From: Candidatus Latescibacterota bacterium
GTDB lineage: Bacteria > JAAXHH01 > JABIQT01
Assembly (NCBI GenBank): GCA_018667995.1
Contig: JABIQT010000877.1
Coordinates: 1 to 8,124 of the forward strand
Direction of reading: 5' to 3'
Length of the DNA stretch: 8,124 bases
This document shows, piece after piece, positions 2,576 to 8,124 of the stretch. Under the pieces are notes generated by a model. That model did no database searches, was not told the origin of the DNA, and saw only the letters and a list, made by a program, of their open reading frames with translations. Numbering within the stretch: the stretch's first letter is position 1; the number at the start of each line of letters is the position of its first letter. The position numbers and the translations under genes are program-made.

Positions 2576-3121
2576 ATGGATGAGAAGCGCCAAATGCTGT
2601 GCCACTTTCTTGCGGCGATAGCCTATCGTACGCAGAAGGCTCTGAGACAGGCGCCGGATGATTTTGCCACTTTTCGCGCTGTTTCAGGTCTCCGTACGCC
2701 TTGGGAGCTCCTCTTGCATATGACCAGTGTTCTGGGATATGCACGCACGCATTTGCAGGGCGGTGTATGGCGTCCAGAGAGATCGTCGGACTTCGAATCA
2801 GAAGTGGCCCGGCTCCACGAGATACTCGAGGGCCTCCGGTGTGAATTGGCATCCGATCATCCGCTCATTGAAACAACGCCCGAACGATTGTTACAGGGGC
2901 CTCTGGCAGATGCTATGTCGCACGCGGGACAGCTCTCCATGTTGAGACGGCTGCATGGATCACCAGTGCCGCCAGAGAATTTCATTGTTGCGGACATTGA
3001 CTCTGAAAATCTAAGTGTGACCCAAGCTGACCCCGTGAGTCCGGATGCAGAATGGTACGATGCGGAAGGCAATATTCAGAGCAGACGACCTACGACGGGA
3101 CACAAAGGCAGACATGACTAA
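2576..3121 (+). CDS. DinB-like four-helix-bundle family protein
   Basis: A 181-residue cytoplasmic protein of the DinB/YfiT-like four-helix-bundle superfamily, whose members are usually small metal-binding proteins; some are thiol (e.g. bacillithiol or mycothiol) transferases and most have no known function. Features seen: TPWELLLHMTSVLGYAR (about 41-57) with His48 in helix 2, and LLQGPLADAMSHAGQLSMLRRL (about 105-126) with His116, followed by GSPVPPENFIVADI. The latter pair of motifs is what I recall from a widespread DinB subfamily of about 170-180 residues. The classical DinB metal site uses three histidines; only two are obvious here, so metal binding is uncertain. The frame is open back to a TTG at 2459, but the purine-rich site at 2563-2571 and the usual family length favour the ATG at 2576. 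Its stop overlaps the kinase start by 8 nt, so the two are probably translationally coupled. Substrate and exact role unknown. Confidence 0.85.
   Translation: MDEKRQMLCHFLAAIAYRTQKALRQAPDDFATFRAVSGLRTPWELLLHMTSVLGYARTHLQGGVWRPERSSDFESEVARLHEILEGLRCELASDHPLIETTPERLLQGPLADAMSHAGQLSMLRRLHGSPVPPENFIVADIDSENLSVTQADPVSPDAEWYDAEGNIQSRRPTTGHKGRHD
3104..3108 (+). promoter_or_regulatory. Ribosome binding site of the kinase-RapZ_C gene
   Basis: AAAGG, 5 nt before the ATG at 3114, lies inside the end of the DinB gene. It supports 3114 rather than the in-frame ATG at 3045, which would overlap the DinB gene by 77 nt. Confidence 0.5.
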
Positions 3122-4547
3122 CACGCAGGCCGTGCACGATCTTTTCAAGAGCTGGACAGGGGGGAACCCGGACAGCATCGTCCCGATGGCCTCCCACGGA
3201 TCCACGCGCAGGTATTTCAGAATCTCCTATGACGGCGGTACGGCTATTGCTGCCATCAATCACGATCGGCGTGAAAATGAAGCATTCGTATCGCTGTCAC
3301 GCCACTTCAGGGGGAAGGGACTGCCCGTTCCCGAAATCCTGTATCAGAATCTCGATCTTGGTATGTACATTGAACAGGATCTGGGGAACCAGACCCTATA
3401 TGACGAGATAGCAGCAGGCACCCGTGGGAATGGATTTTCAGATGAGGCAATGGATCAATATCGCATGGTTCTGGACTGGCTACCGCAGTTTCAAATTACA
3501 GGAGCCCAGGACCTTGATTTTAGCATCTGCTATCCTCGTCAAAGCTTCGATGAGCAGTCCATAGTGTGGGATCTTAACTATTTCAAATATCACTTTCTCA
3601 AGTTCACGAATATCTCATTTGACGAGCAGGCTCTCGAAGACGATTTTGCTCAGTTCACAGAATACCTGCTGGGTGCCGATTCCGCCTATTTTATGTACCG
3701 GGATTTTCAGTCCCGTAATGTGATGTGGAACGACGATGGGCCCTGGTTTATCGATTACCAGGGCGGCCGTAGAGGGGCCTTGCAGTATGACCTGGCTTCC
3801 CTGTTGCAGGATGCTAAGGCTGATATTCCATGGGAGGATAGAGAAGTACTGCTTGCATATTACCTTGATGCTGCAAGCCAGTTGATCCCTGTGGATCGAT
3901 CCCAATTTATGAAGTACTATTATGCCTATGCATTAATCCGCATCATGCAGGCGTTTGGTGCCTACGGTCTGCGTGGACTTCACGAGGGAAAGTCCCTGTT
4001 TCTGAAGAGCATTTCCTATGCGGTCGCCAATTTAAAAGGCCTGACAGAGCGTGCAGAACTGCCACTTCCCTTGCCCGAACTCCGGTCGGTTTGGGGGCAG
4101 ATCATGGACTCAGAGCAATTGCAAAGTATAGGGATGCCGTCTGCCGACGGCTTAACGGTACATATAACCAGTTTCTCATACCATAGAGGCATTCCTCGGG
4201 ACGACTCGGGACACGGAGGCGGGTTCACGTTTGACTGCCGGATCCTCCCTAATCCAGGTCGCCTTCCCGAATACGCAGAACTCACCGGTATGGATTCGGA
4301 AGTGGTGAAATACCTTCAGAAAAGTGGTGCCGTGACCGAATTTCGGGCCGACGTGATGCGAATTGTGGATCGCGCGGTTGGACACCATGCGGATCGGGGG
4401 TTTTCAGACCTGACGATCAATTTTGGATGTACGGGCGGGAGACATAGATCCGTCTATTTCGCCGAAGAGACCGCCAGGCACCTCGCTGGGAAATATGGAT
4501 CCAATGTCATAATGCATCACCGAGAACAGGAGGCGGAGGCAGATTGA
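3114..4547 (+). CDS. APH-family (AmgK-like) sugar kinase fused to a RapZ C-terminal domain
   Basis: A 477-residue two-domain protein. Residues about 8-330 are an aminoglycoside-phosphotransferase-fold kinase. The segment SHGSTRRYFRIS (28-39) fits the nucleotide-binding loop seen in AmgK; YRDFQSRNVMW (195-205) is the catalytic loop with Asp197 and Asn202; WFIDYQGGRRGALQYDLASL (211-230) carries the metal-binding Asp214. Residues about 346-470 are the RapZ C-terminal domain, with FTFDCRILPNP (371-381), LTGMD and GCTGGRHRSVYFAE (438-451). The N-terminal P-loop domain of full RapZ is absent and is replaced by the kinase. AmgK phosphorylates the anomeric C1 of MurNAc or GlcNAc in peptidoglycan recycling; RapZ_C in E. 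coli binds glucosamine-6-phosphate and the GlmY/GlmZ RNAs. The MurU-like gene just downstream supports an amino-sugar-1-phosphate kinase role. Substrate is inferred, not seen. I recall similar fusions from Bacteroidota, where they are often named RapZ. The catalytic loop has Tyr where most kinases have His (HRD). Confidence 0.88.
   Translation: MTNTQAVHDLFKSWTGGNPDSIVPMASHGSTRRYFRISYDGGTAIAAINHDRRENEAFVSLSRHFRGKGLPVPEILYQNLDLGMYIEQDLGNQTLYDEIAAGTRGNGFSDEAMDQYRMVLDWLPQFQITGAQDLDFSICYPRQSFDEQSIVWDLNYFKYHFLKFTNISFDEQALEDDFAQFTEYLLGADSAYFMYRDFQSRNVMWNDDGPWFIDYQGGRRGALQYDLASLLQDAKADIPWEDREVLLAYYLDAASQLIPVDRSQFMKYYYAYALIRIMQAFGAYGLRGLHEGKSLFLKSISYAVANLKGLTERAELPLPLPELRSVWGQIMDSEQLQSIGMPSADGLTVHITSFSYHRGIPRDDSGHGGGFTFDCRILPNPGRLPEYAELTGMDSEVVKYLQKSGAVTEFRADVMRIVDRAVGHHADRGFSDLTINFGCTGGRHRSVYFAEETARHLAGKYGSNVIMHHREQEAEAD
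4528..4539 (+). promoter_or_regulatory. Strong Shine-Dalgarno-like tract at the end of the kinase gene
   Basis: AGGAGG (4528-4533) and GGAGG (4535-4539) lie 10 and 4 nt before a TTG at 4544 that overlaps the kinase stop TGA. This makes the TTG a credible coupled start for the next gene. The tract also encodes the Glu-rich kinase tail (EQEAEA), so the match may be coincidental. Confidence 0.4.
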
Positions 4548-4603
4548 ATCAACGGTGCGGCGAATTCGTCGCGAAAGATCCGGGGATTCACTCAAGCTGC
4601 ACT

Positions 4604-5380
4604 ATGAAGGCTATGATCCTCGCGGCGGGCCTGGGTACAAGGCTCAGGCCGCTCACCGACTCGGTTCCCAAAGCACTCCTTGAGGTGTATGGTCGGCCCT
4701 TGCTGGCCTGGGTAGTGGATCGGTTAGCGCTTAACGGTTTCACAGATATCGTCGTGAACGCCCACCACCATGCAGAACAGATTGTTGCATTCGCGGAGTG
4801 GTACCCTGATCATGCCGGTATTGAGGGACTACGAATGGCGGTCTCCCTTGAGGAAGACCTGCTTGGGACGGGAGGCGGCTTGAAGCAGGCGGAGTGGTTT
4901 TTCGATGACGATCAGCCTTTCCTGCTACACAATGCGGATGTGATCACTGATGTGGATCTTCAGGCATTGGCACACAAGCATCTGGAGTCCGGCGCACTAG
5001 CAACTCTGGCAGTCAAGAAGCGCGATACGAAACGGTATCTCTTGTTTGACGAGGAAGATGATCTGTGCGGTTGGCAGTCCACAGAGCCTGCCGAGACACG
5101 CGAGGTCCGCAAGCCGTCCGGGCAGACGACTCCGTATCCGTTTCTCTGCGTACAAATCCTATCTCCAGAAGTATTCAATACCATGAATTCCCCCTCACCC
5201 TATTCATTAATCGACGCCTATCTGGCGGCTGTGGCAGGTGGTCACCGTGTCACTTCATTCTTAGCGCCTGATGCGCGTTGGATGGATGTGGGACGCCCAG
5301 GACATCTGGAGCAGGTGGCAGGGCTCTTTGGGGATCGGTATTTTGAAGCCCTGCTTGCTCGAGATCGCGATTCTGGTTGA
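4604..5380 (+). CDS. MurU-like nucleotidyltransferase (sugar-1-phosphate uridylyl/nucleotidyl transferase)
   Basis: A 258-residue member of the NTP-transferase (GT-A-like Rossmann) family, which joins a sugar-1-phosphate to an NTP to give an NDP-sugar and pyrophosphate. Visible: MKAMILAAGLGTRLRPLT (1-18) with the GxGTRLRPLT nucleotide loop, VPKALLEV with Lys23, LLGTGGGL (86-93), HNADVITDVDL (109-119) where Asp112 is the likely metal ligand, and WMDVGRPGHLEQ (226-237). Length and motif order fit MurU (MurNAc-1-P uridylyltransferase) better than the longer RmlA or GlmU enzymes, and no left-handed beta-helix follows. Coming straight after an AmgK-like kinase, it probably uses that kinase's product. 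The base and sugar specificity cannot be read from sequence. Start: ATG 4604 puts the usual N-terminus first but has no good ribosome site; TTG 4544, overlapping the kinase stop and next to a strong purine tract, would add 20 unconserved residues. Confidence 0.88.
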   Translation: MKAMILAAGLGTRLRPLTDSVPKALLEVYGRPLLAWVVDRLALNGFTDIVVNAHHHAEQIVAFAEWYPDHAGIEGLRMAVSLEEDLLGTGGGLKQAEWFFDDDQPFLLHNADVITDVDLQALAHKHLESGALATLAVKKRDTKRYLLFDEEDDLCGWQSTEPAETREVRKPSGQTTPYPFLCVQILSPEVFNTMNSPSPYSLIDAYLAAVAGGHRVTSFLAPDARWMDVGRPGHLEQVAGLFGDRYFEALLARDRDSG

Positions 5381-5479: not shown

Positions 5480-5845
5480 ATGGCAGAAATCAGCCCCGTC
5501 GAGTTGGCACAGCGATATGTGGCGCTCTCGAATGACCACGATCTCAATAAGGTTTTTTGCCTATTTGACCATATGGCCACTTATCACTCGTCTCAGTTCG
5601 GAAGTTTCATGGGCCGAGAGTCCATAGAAGAGATGATGGGTGGTTTCTTCAGCAAGTTTCCAGATGTTTGCTGGACTGTCGACGAGTATGTGCAGGAGCC
5701 AGATCGCAGTGTCTCCTTTGAGTTTATCATGCGCGCCACAAGCGCAGATACGGGTGAAACTGTGGAACGCCGGGGAATCGAGCGCATCTACTTCGGGCAA
5801 GACGAACTGATTACGCACGTGGAAGTAGGGGTAACAACGGGATAG
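5480..5845 (+). CDS. SnoaL-like / NTF2-fold small protein
   Basis: A 121-residue single-domain protein of the NTF2-like superfamily, SnoaL-like branch, a cone-shaped alpha+beta fold. Members include polyketide cyclases, ketosteroid isomerases, epoxide hydrolases and many proteins of unknown function. Visible pattern: helical start VELAQRYVALSNDHDLNKVF, then the YHSSQFGSFMGRESIEEMM segment (35-53), FFSKFPDVCWTVDEYV (56-71), SFEFIMRAT (79-87), and the closing strands RRGIERIYFGQDELITHVEV (98-116). A ribosome site AGGGA (5466-5470) stands 9 nt before the ATG. The gene is 99 nt after the MurU-like gene and 298 nt before phyH, so it may be transcribed alone or as the tail of the upstream unit. His21-Asp22 near the start and Asp62 are possible pocket residues, but no catalytic set can be assigned. 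Function unknown. Confidence 0.82.
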   Translation: MAEISPVELAQRYVALSNDHDLNKVFCLFDHMATYHSSQFGSFMGRESIEEMMGGFFSKFPDVCWTVDEYVQEPDRSVSFEFIMRATSADTGETVERRGIERIYFGQDELITHVEVGVTTG

Positions 5846-5982
5846 GTGGTTGGTTGACGGTGGTTTTCCCCTTGTGTCCGCAGCATCGCTTCCTATCAGA
5901 ATACTCGTGACACATTTGGGTTGGTATTGTGGGATCCAGGCATAGGTTCCACCGTTGCTTAAATGGCTTCTCGTTGCCTACT

Positions 5983-5998
5983 CCAGGATCGCTCCTGG
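5983..5998 (+). other. Perfect stem-loop in the phyH upstream gap
   Basis: CCAGGA (5983-5988) and TCCTGG (5993-5998) form a 6-bp stem with a 4-nt TCGC loop. No T-run follows on either strand, so it is not a standard terminator. It could be an operator-like inverted repeat or the 3' end of the SnoaL-like transcript; its position about 145 nt before the phyH start allows either. Confidence 0.3.
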
Positions 5999-6072
5999 CA
6001 TACATGATCGGTGGCAGACTAAACATCGCGGTAGCCCATTGGTGGTGAATTCCATCCTGCGGAACTGATCGC

Positions 6073-6147
6073 ATGGAGCTCGACCTAATCAGCAGAACAA
6101 GTGACCAGGCAATAGATTTGATTCGCTTGGCCGTGAGGTTAAGATGA
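6073..6147 (+). CDS. Possible 24-codon leader ORF overlapping the phyH start
   Basis: An ATG at 6073 opens a frame of 24 codons (beginning MELDLISRTSDQA) whose TGA at 6145-6147 overlaps the phyH ATG at 6144 in an ATGA junction. A GGAA 8 nt before the ATG is a weak ribosome site. Ending exactly on the next start codon is the arrangement used for translational coupling. The peptide is not recognised and shows no run of one amino acid as in attenuator leaders. If the promoter-like element at 6113-6120 is real, this ORF would not be in that transcript. Chance is quite possible. Confidence 0.15.
   Translation: MELDLISRTSDQAIDLIRLAVRLR
6113..6120 (+). promoter_or_regulatory. TAGATTTG, Bacteroidota-type -7 promoter element candidate
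   Basis: TAGATTTG fits the TAnnTTTG -7 element of Bacteroidota housekeeping promoters, and read as TAGATT is a moderate (four of six) sigma70 -10 box. It is 23 nt before the phyH ATG. No matching TTG -33 element is seen about 20 nt upstream, which weakens the call. Confidence 0.22.
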
Positions 6148-7343
6148 CAATCGATCGAGATAGATTCATGAAGGACGGTTATATGATCGTCCGCAATGCA
6201 ATTCCAGCAGATAAGTTGGAGGCGGTACGGTCTGCATACGAAGTGTTGGTGGATCTGCAGAAGGGCATCTGGGCCGCGGACCGTGGAGAATCCGATCCAC
6301 CGGAAGGCGTCTGGGCAACCTCGGCTCAACCCCGATTAAACCTGGAGACGATGGCGAATCTGGTGGACGAGCGGAGCGCAATGGCTATCGAGGCCTGGCT
6401 CAATCCAAATATCCATGGGTTGAGCTCCACCTTGCTGGGCGTACCCGATGCGGCTGTCACGCAGATGATGCTCATGTGTAGCCCCGTCAAGGATCATGGA
6501 CCAGCTCTATGGCACCGGGACATGTATCCGCCGTACTGCGCGCCACTCGGGGGATACATTGAAGACATACTCGAAGGAGGACCCCGCTACATTCAGTGGA
6601 ACATCCCTCTTTACGACGACGACGTCCTCTGGGTGGTGCCCGGGAGTCATATACGGGTGAATTCGGAAGAGGAGGATGCGTCAATTCGGTCCGATCCCCG
6701 AGTACCTCTGTCCGGTAGCATTCAAACAAATCTGAAGGCCGGTGACGGGGTGGTATATATTCTGCCAATCCTTCATTGGGGCAGTAACTACACCCCACTG
6801 CTGCGGCGCTGTATACACGGTGGTTTCTCAACGTTCTCACAATATGAAGATCTCAGCTTTTTGAATCACCTGTCGGATAATACCCAGGCCGCATTTTCTC
6901 GGTGGGACCTGCGTTCGGAGGAAATGAAGGAGCACACAGAGTCCGCACTCAGAGCGTTTATGGCGGGTAACAAGGATGGGTACTTTACGGCCCTCGAAAG
7001 ACTTCATCCTGGACGGGGCGACAGGGGGAGGGCTCTCTCGACCGTATTTCTAAGCAAGACTTCTAAACGGATTCACAGCCTGAAACAACCTGAGTTTCAC
7101 ACACTTCCGGAGCAGGAGCAGGGGTGGGCAGAGCGACCGCACCCGGGTACGCTCCAATGGGGCCGAGCGTTCGCAGCACGCTTTTCGACTGCTGAGGCCC
7201 AAAGGCTCTGGGAGCGATTCCAGCAGGTAGATTCTCTCGTGCAATCCTCCGAACCGCAATACGCACCAGGATTTCAGGGAGCCAATTCAATCTATAATTT
7301 CATTGGAATGCCATTAACGGAAGCAATTTTGGCAGCGGTGTAG
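6144..7343 (+). CDS. PhyH-family Fe(II)/2-oxoglutarate-dependent oxygenase
   Basis: A 399-residue protein of the phytanoyl-CoA dioxygenase family, double-stranded beta-helix enzymes that use Fe(II), O2 and 2-oxoglutarate to hydroxylate, halogenate or otherwise oxidise small molecules. The start FMKDGYMIVRNAIP (8-21) is the usual N-terminal helix-strand. The iron ligands are His124 and Asp126 in WHRDMYPP and most likely His211 in LPILHWGSNYTP; Arg221 or Arg222 would hold 2-oxoglutarate. QWNIPLYDDDVLWVVPGSHIR (151-171) is the typical core strand and PGSH turn. The beta-helix core seems to end near residue 235, and about 160 more residues, partly charged and helical-looking, follow without a pattern I know, so it is longer than common PhyH proteins. 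Ribosome site GTGAGG (6133-6138) lies 5 nt before the ATG. The P450 gene 74 nt downstream suggests they act in one oxidative pathway. Substrate unknown. Confidence 0.87.
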   Translation: MTIDRDRFMKDGYMIVRNAIPADKLEAVRSAYEVLVDLQKGIWAADRGESDPPEGVWATSAQPRLNLETMANLVDERSAMAIEAWLNPNIHGLSSTLLGVPDAAVTQMMLMCSPVKDHGPALWHRDMYPPYCAPLGGYIEDILEGGPRYIQWNIPLYDDDVLWVVPGSHIRVNSEEEDASIRSDPRVPLSGSIQTNLKAGDGVVYILPILHWGSNYTPLLRRCIHGGFSTFSQYEDLSFLNHLSDNTQAAFSRWDLRSEEMKEHTESALRAFMAGNKDGYFTALERLHPGRGDRGRALSTVFLSKTSKRIHSLKQPEFHTLPEQEQGWAERPHPGTLQWGRAFAARFSTAEAQRLWERFQQVDSLVQSSEPQYAPGFQGANSIYNFIGMPLTEAILAAV

Positions 7344-7417
7344 CGAGATCCCTTTGTCGTTCTTTTTCGCGAGCAGTTATCCATCTCCGTACAAATCGCA
7401 ATTCTGGAAATGAACAT

Positions 7418-8124
7418 ATGACCGATAACGTATATACGCGTCCCCCGATTACTTCTGACGTTTCCGGGGCCACTTGCCCCGTCTCCGGACTCGGTGCTAC
7501 CTTTGATCCCTTTGTGGATCCCTATATCAGCGATCCATACGCATTCTATACAGAGGCTCGGGAGCGTGAGCCTGTCTTCTATAGTCCAGAGATTGATCAT
7601 TGGGTGGTGACACGATATGACGATATCAAGAGCATACTCGACGATCCGGAGACCTACTCGTCCCGCATGGCCCAATCGCCAATCAAGCCGTGGCCAATGG
7701 AAGCGGTGGACATGTTGCAGGCGCAGAACTTCAACATGATTCCAAATCTCAGCAATAACGATCCGCCGTCGCACACACAGGTTCGCCATTTCCTTCAGGA
7801 CGCCTTCACACCCCGTCGGATCGCCTGGCTCGAACCCCACGTCCGCCGTCTGGTTCGAGATGCCATAGGTGCGTTTCCCAGAGAGGGAGAGATCGATTTA
7901 GTGCAGGACCTGCTGTACGAAACACCGGCCCGGGTTCTTTTCGTCTTTCTGGGCATTCCTGGGACTGATGTGGAGAAGATAAAACGCTGGTCCGAAGGGC
8001 GGGCCCTGTTGACGTGGGGGAAACCGACTGATCAGGAAATCATCAATCAGATGCCGGATTTTATCGAATACATTCATTACTGTATCAAACTGGTAGAGCG
8101 TCTGGATCAGAATCCTGGTGATGA
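7418..8124 (+). CDS. Cytochrome P450, N-terminal half (runs off the window end)
   Basis: The frame opens at ATG 7418 (GGAAA at 7406-7410, 7 nt before) and is still open at the last base, giving 235 residues. Soluble bacterial P450 features are clear: FDPFVDPYISDPYAFY (29-44), EPVFYSPEIDHWVVTRYDD (51-69), the C-helix region NNDPPSHTQVRHFLQDAFTP (113-132), and FLGIPGTDVEKIKRWSEGRALLTWG (177-201). No signal anchor is present, so it is cytoplasmic. The I-helix AGxxT, the ExxR motif and the heme-ligand Cys loop lie beyond the window, so activity cannot be confirmed. The early CPV motif (20-22), the phrase EPVFYSPEI-x-x-WVVTRYDD and the LLTWGKPTDQE segment are like what I recall from CYP116B-type P450s, which carry a fused phthalate-dioxygenase-type reductase. 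A short ORF (ATG 7410) ends on this start codon. Together with phyH it looks like the start of an oxidative gene cluster. Confidence 0.93.
   Translation, partial: MTDNVYTRPPITSDVSGATCPVSGLGATFDPFVDPYISDPYAFYTEAREREPVFYSPEIDHWVVTRYDDIKSILDDPETYSSRMAQSPIKPWPMEAVDMLQAQNFNMIPNLSNNDPPSHTQVRHFLQDAFTPRRIAWLEPHVRRLVRDAIGAFPREGEIDLVQDLLYETPARVLFVFLGIPGTDVEKIKRWSEGRALLTWGKPTDQEIINQMPDFIEYIHYCIKLVERLDQNPGD

Follow-up and report, generated by a model that had tools for sequence, protein, structure and literature searches.

A kinase–RapZ_C fusion beside a MurU-like gene in Latescibacterota: a probable amino-sugar salvage module with a candidate phosphatase domain

What does the C-terminal domain of RapZ (RapZ_C) do when it is joined to a kinase? 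The question is raised by a locus of Candidatus Latescibacterota in which a kinase–RapZ_C fusion precedes a gene for a MurU-like nucleotidyltransferase. The window, that is, the whole stretch of DNA analysed, is an entire contig of 8,124 bases from a metagenome-assembled genome (6.06 Mb, 85% complete). The features of the locus are as follows.

2576..3121, + strand: ORF 5' of the fusion, 181 aa, matching no Pfam or NCBIfam model; 8-nt overlap with the fusion start
3114..4547, + strand: fusion protein, putative APH-fold amino-sugar kinase plus RapZ_C domain, 477 aa (ORF, Pfam, model)
3114..4067, + strand: kinase domain, aa 1-318 (Pfam APH, invariant residues, VIA Z 30.1 to 3csv)
3702-3704, + strand: D197 codon, invariant in relatives
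3717-3719, + strand: N202 codon, invariant in relatives
3753-3755, + strand: D214 codon, invariant in relatives
4068..4148, + strand: linker between the domains, aa 319-345 (domain limits from Pfam and VIA)
4149..4532, + strand: RapZ_C domain, aa 346-473 (PF22740, 115 bits; VIA Z 20.2)
4209..4223, + strand: GHGGG insert, Gly-rich and specific to the subfamily, aa 366-370; canonical RapZ lacks it (alignment)
4257..4259, + strand: Gly382, at the position of the E. coli RapZ pocket residue His190 (alignment)
4428..4448, + strand: C-X5-R loop C439-R445 (E. coli C247-R253), oxyanion pocket (alignment, model)
4604..5380, + strand: MurU-like nucleotidyltransferase, 258 aa (PF00483, 84.7 bits; NCBIfam MurU is the best match)

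The first-pass annotation had described an APH-fold kinase with intact Asp197, Asn202 and Asp214, joined to a RapZ_C domain (motif GCTGGRHRS, here aa 438-446) lacking the P-loop domain of RapZ and directly followed by a MurU-like gene, and each part of this description stood. Both domains lie in one ORF, the P-loop N-domain (PF03668) was found neither in the fusion nor elsewhere in the window genome, and 56 nt separate the stop of the fusion from the start of the MurU-like gene. The ATG of the fusion overlaps the stop of the preceding ORF by 8 nt, and the two are probably co-translated. That ORF is not a conserved partner, as no neighbour of the fused loci other than MurU is conserved. The remainder of the window encodes the last 813 aa of a DEAH helicase of HrpA type, truncated at the contig edge (1-2442), and, downstream of the MurU-like gene and all on one strand (5480-8122), a SnoaL-like protein, a PhyH-type dioxygenase and a cytochrome P450 fragment.

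A structure model of the whole protein, built from 57 relatives, contained both domains at a mean pLDDT of 93; a single-sequence model (pLDDT 39.6) was discarded. The kinase part matched 3csv best in VIA. Pfam APH (PF01636) covers aa 24-251 with 42.2 bits against a cut-off of 23.2, and D197, N202 and D214, the Brenner-motif Asp/Asn and the DFG-like Asp, are unchanged across alignments of 11 and 57 relatives. The domain is thus a member of the APH superfamily by score, residues and fold. Its specificity for an amino sugar, as had been proposed, is the best available reading: the only NCBIfam kinase models that the fusion matched were two for AmgK, both far below their cut-offs (NF045698, 67.9 of 500 bits; NF045759, 58.2 of 550 bits). 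On this weak similarity the kinase is predicted to work like AmgK but is not filed as AmgK. The MurU-like protein likewise falls short of the NCBIfam MurU cut-off (NF045761, 117.5 of 250 bits), although this is still its best family match. The locus is probably a two-gene amino-sugar salvage module, in which the APH domain would convert a free amino sugar to its 1-phosphate and the MurU-like enzyme would convert the 1-phosphate to a UDP-sugar. The salvaged sugar is most likely MurNAc, and possibly also GlcNAc.

A search for the APH plus RapZ_C architecture found the fusion to be recurrent. In a sample of 15 genomes from the window's order (G001 to G015) it was full-length in 13, in two pieces in one and absent from one (83% complete); the full-length relatives within the order share 54-60% identity. 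The first-pass annotation knew the fusion from Bacteroidota, where it does occur, but this understated its range, which takes in ten or more named groups at about the level of phylum. Beyond Latescibacterota, carriers are found in KSB1, Calditrichota, Neomarinimicrobiota, Bacteroidota, Ignavibacteria, Chlorobiota, Acidobacteriota, Elusimicrobiota, Spirochaetota and Gemmatimonadota. Neither chance nor faulty assembly accounts for the fusion, given its recurrence in many genomes and the confidence of the model. Of the 96 fused loci with enough flanking sequence for this check, 75 have MurU no more than 300 bp downstream. In five genomes (G304, G229, G106, G316 and G058) kinase, RapZ_C and MurU are separate consecutive genes, and in a single case (G022) RapZ_C is joined to MurU rather than to the kinase. 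These split rows and the RapZ_C–MurU fusion suggest a role for RapZ_C in the pathway. Our literature search found no paper describing the kinase–RapZ_C fusion, which is seemingly unstudied in spite of being widespread.

The second domain is RapZ_C by both score and fold. PF22740 spans aa 347-472 with 115.4 bits against a cut-off of 27, and the model superimposes on the E. coli RapZ C-terminal domain (5o5s) at 1.5 A rmsd over 123 residues. The RapZ model, NF003828, gave the fusion only 101 of 244 bits. In a tree of 90 RapZ_C domains, canonical RapZ and the kinase-partnered domains fell on opposite sides of a branch with support of 100/98, so that the latter form one clade, a subfamily apart from RapZ. 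The two types also differ in residues (E. coli numbering). The insert region has a length of 11 in all 101 fused proteins, at least 11 in all nine split ones and 6 in all 22 canonical ones; the five-residue Gly-rich insert is accordingly present in 101/101 fused and 0/22 canonical domains. Position 190 is Gly in 100 of 101 fused domains and His, Tyr, Asn or Phe in canonical RapZ; position 191 is Arg or Lys in the partnered domains and aromatic in canonical RapZ; position 238 is Phe in 98 of 101 and canonically Arg or Lys; and position 251 is mostly Gln in place of the canonical Lys or Arg. One genome (G389) holds both a canonical RapZ (L163) and a kinase-partnered domain (L180), each in its own clade, and, together with the 100/98 branch, this rules out a recent capture of RapZ_C from canonical RapZ. 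Genomes that carry the module seldom have the canonical P-loop domain: it was clear in one of the 15 module families, against ~79 of the 168 other genomes (Fisher p 0.002, which is no more than a guide, as the sample is phylogenetically structured).

Both types share a core of C247-T-G-G-x-H-R253-S254, D182, R184, N188 and H276, in which D182, R184, N188, C247, G250, H252 and R253 show little or no variation. One fused protein of the 101 (L170, G228:C28) has Gly for the cysteine of the loop. The GlcN6P pocket of E. coli RapZ consists of H190, T248, G249, H252 and R253 (PMC5737377, PMC9841335). Alignment with the fused domains showed T248, G249, H252 and R253 to be kept, and H190 to be replaced by Gly with the new insert nearby in sequence. 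Since four of the five pocket residues are kept, and the only exchange lies next to the new loop, the domain probably still binds a ligand, which may differ from GlcN6P and is perhaps another sugar phosphate. Compared with RapZ and YvcJ, the fusion has the same C-terminal fold and C-T-G-G-x-H-R-S pocket but differs in its missing P-loop domain, its insert, H190G, R238F, its separate clade and the loss of RNA-contact residues.

AnmK makes MurNAc-6-P, which the HAD phosphatase MupP of Pseudomonas converts to MurNAc. MupP was discovered through profiling of Beta- and Gammaproteobacteria (PMC5371407). We found AnmK in the window genome and in all 13 order relatives tested, and no MurQ above cut-off in these 14 genomes; among the HAD proteins scanned in the window order, none scored above cut-off for MupP. 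In the AmgK–MurU recycling pathway of Pseudomonas and Caulobacter, too, an APH-fold anomeric sugar kinase stands beside a MurU-type uridylyltransferase, with AnmK in the genome and MurQ absent. The window differs from that pathway in the RapZ_C domain on its kinase, the lack of a clear MupP and the unreached AmgK and MurU equivalog scores. With AnmK present and neither MurQ nor, among the HAD proteins scanned, MupP above cut-off, the step from AnmK to the kinase has no assigned enzyme in the window order, and the fused RapZ_C could supply it. The pattern of AnmK without MurQ is not universal in the other module families. AnmK is missing from 7 of the 15, and its enrichment over background is weak and not significant (p 0.08), so the substrate of RapZ_C need not be MurNAc-6-P everywhere.

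We therefore favour the reading that RapZ_C serves a MurNAc/GlcNAc salvage module as its sugar-6-phosphate phosphatase, with a probability of about 0.4 and a GlcN6P sensor close behind. The C-X5-R-S loop would hold the sugar 6-phosphate, the cysteine would remove the phosphate, and the free sugar would pass to the kinase, so that RapZ_C would fill the role of MupP, turning the AnmK product MurNAc-6-P into MurNAc. Cys phosphatases characteristically bind oxyanions with a C-X5-R-S loop set between a strand and a helix. In our model, strand 432-439 ends at C439 and helix 445-460 starts at R445, which S446 follows. In E. coli RapZ this loop binds sulphate and malonate through the T248/G249 backbone and R253 (PMC5737377); the C247S variant is inactive, and its authors suggested a catalytic thiol (PMC5737377, PMC9841335). 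Density for GlcN6P with E. coli RapZ was that of a transformed product, described as 'chemically transformed' (PMC5737377, PMC9841335). PMC7525490 states phosphatase activity for the RapZ homologue YvcJ, beside which RapZ papers name HpaP, described as an ATPase and phosphatase, as a distant relative.

Several observations speak against a phosphatase. The resemblance to the C-X5-R phosphatases of the PTP superfamily is local, and PDB sequence and Pfam searches detected no sequence similarity of RapZ_C to Cys phosphatases. RapZ_C is also unrelated in sequence to MupP, in whose place it would act between AnmK and AmgK, and the proposed chemistry is Cys-based in place of the HAD aspartate. The Foldseek and VIA lists for the whole fusion model consist of kinases and RapZ, and the absence of phosphatases from them is no evidence. 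The published DALI match of the RapZ C-terminal domain is a phosphofructokinase subdomain (PMC5737377), which, with the lack of phosphatase homology, suggests that the C-X5-R motif could be a mere anion-binding loop. Canonical RapZ has an identical loop and yet regulates through tight GlcN6P binding, and the available text on YvcJ does not tie its activity to the RapZ_C domain. AnmK is absent from nearly half of the module families, generic HAD phosphatases of no assigned role are present in the window order, and the one fused protein with Gly in the loop would lack the nucleophile.

A quite possible alternative, held tentatively, is that RapZ_C, on binding GlcN6P or some related sugar phosphate, exerts allosteric control over the activity of the kinase, and perhaps of MurU, balancing salvage against de novo synthesis. 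The E. coli domain binds GlcN6P with a KD of ~10 nM (PMC7073468), and the control of kinase activity by a sensor, as the first-pass annotation proposed, agrees with the tethering of the domain and the partly kept pocket. Most of the module genomes tested have MurA, indicating that salvage and de novo routes coexist. Less easily reconciled with a sensor are the near-universal loss of H190 close to the insert and an invariant cysteine that exceeds the needs of binding. Moreover, RapZ_C is also found unfused and, in one case, joined to MurU, so its role must go beyond controlling the kinase in cis. In four genomes of 93-98% completeness (G312, G304, G058 and G228) MurA scores were 70-121 of 392.7 bits, none near the cut-off, and the first three of these also carry MurQ. 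Tannerella forsythia depends on salvage for UDP-MurNAc, and these four may do so as well.

It is unlikely that the kinase acts instead on GlcNAc or GalNAc, like N-acetylhexosamine 1-kinase (NahK), or on glucosamine, with the UDP-sugar destined for surface glycans rather than for MurNAc salvage. Consistent with such a substrate are the low AmgK and MurU scores, the module families without AnmK and the more distant VIA matches of the kinase part, NahK (Z 19.9) and glucosamine kinase (Z 19.7), which tie with choline kinases. AmgK and MurU are nevertheless the best family matches, and AnmK without MurQ in all 14 genomes tested from the window order points to MurNAc.

A purely structural function, in which RapZ_C dimerises the kinase or docks MurU and so channels the sugar 1-phosphate, is improbable: the RapZ C-terminal domain forms dimers (PMC5737377, PMC7073468) and RapZ_C is fused or adjacent to both enzymes, but scaffolding alone hardly explains invariant polar pocket residues. 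The binding of small RNAs as by E. coli RapZ, which the first-pass annotation had also offered, is very improbable in spite of the shared fold (Z 20.2), because most of the basic residues of the RNA path (K170, R184, K194, R196, R211, R238 and K251; PMC9841335) are lost, with only the K170 and R184 positions mostly basic, R/K238 replaced by Phe and K/R251 mostly by Gln, the C-tail of the window protein is acidic, the net charge of the window domain is -4 against +5 in E. coli, and the RNA-binding tail has been described as confined to Enterobacteriaceae (PMC7073468).

RapZ_C of the fusion thus looks more like a part that handles a sugar phosphate, perhaps as a phosphatase, than like an RNA-based regulator. 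If it acts as a sensor, the fusion would be a simple single-protein system for studying feedback on salvage. If it is catalytic, many non-proteobacterial lineages would gain an enzyme for the unassigned phosphatase step, from MurNAc-6-P, of their cell-wall salvage, and both the inactivation of E. coli RapZ by C247S and the apparently altered GlcN6P in its pocket would be accounted for. We infer, as a more doubtful extension, that RapZ_C may be the missing MurNAc-6-P phosphatase in at least ten groups fused there to the MurNAc 1-kinase, and that E. coli RapZ, which binds RNA and senses GlcN6P, may be a repurposed relative of such a Cys-based enzyme.
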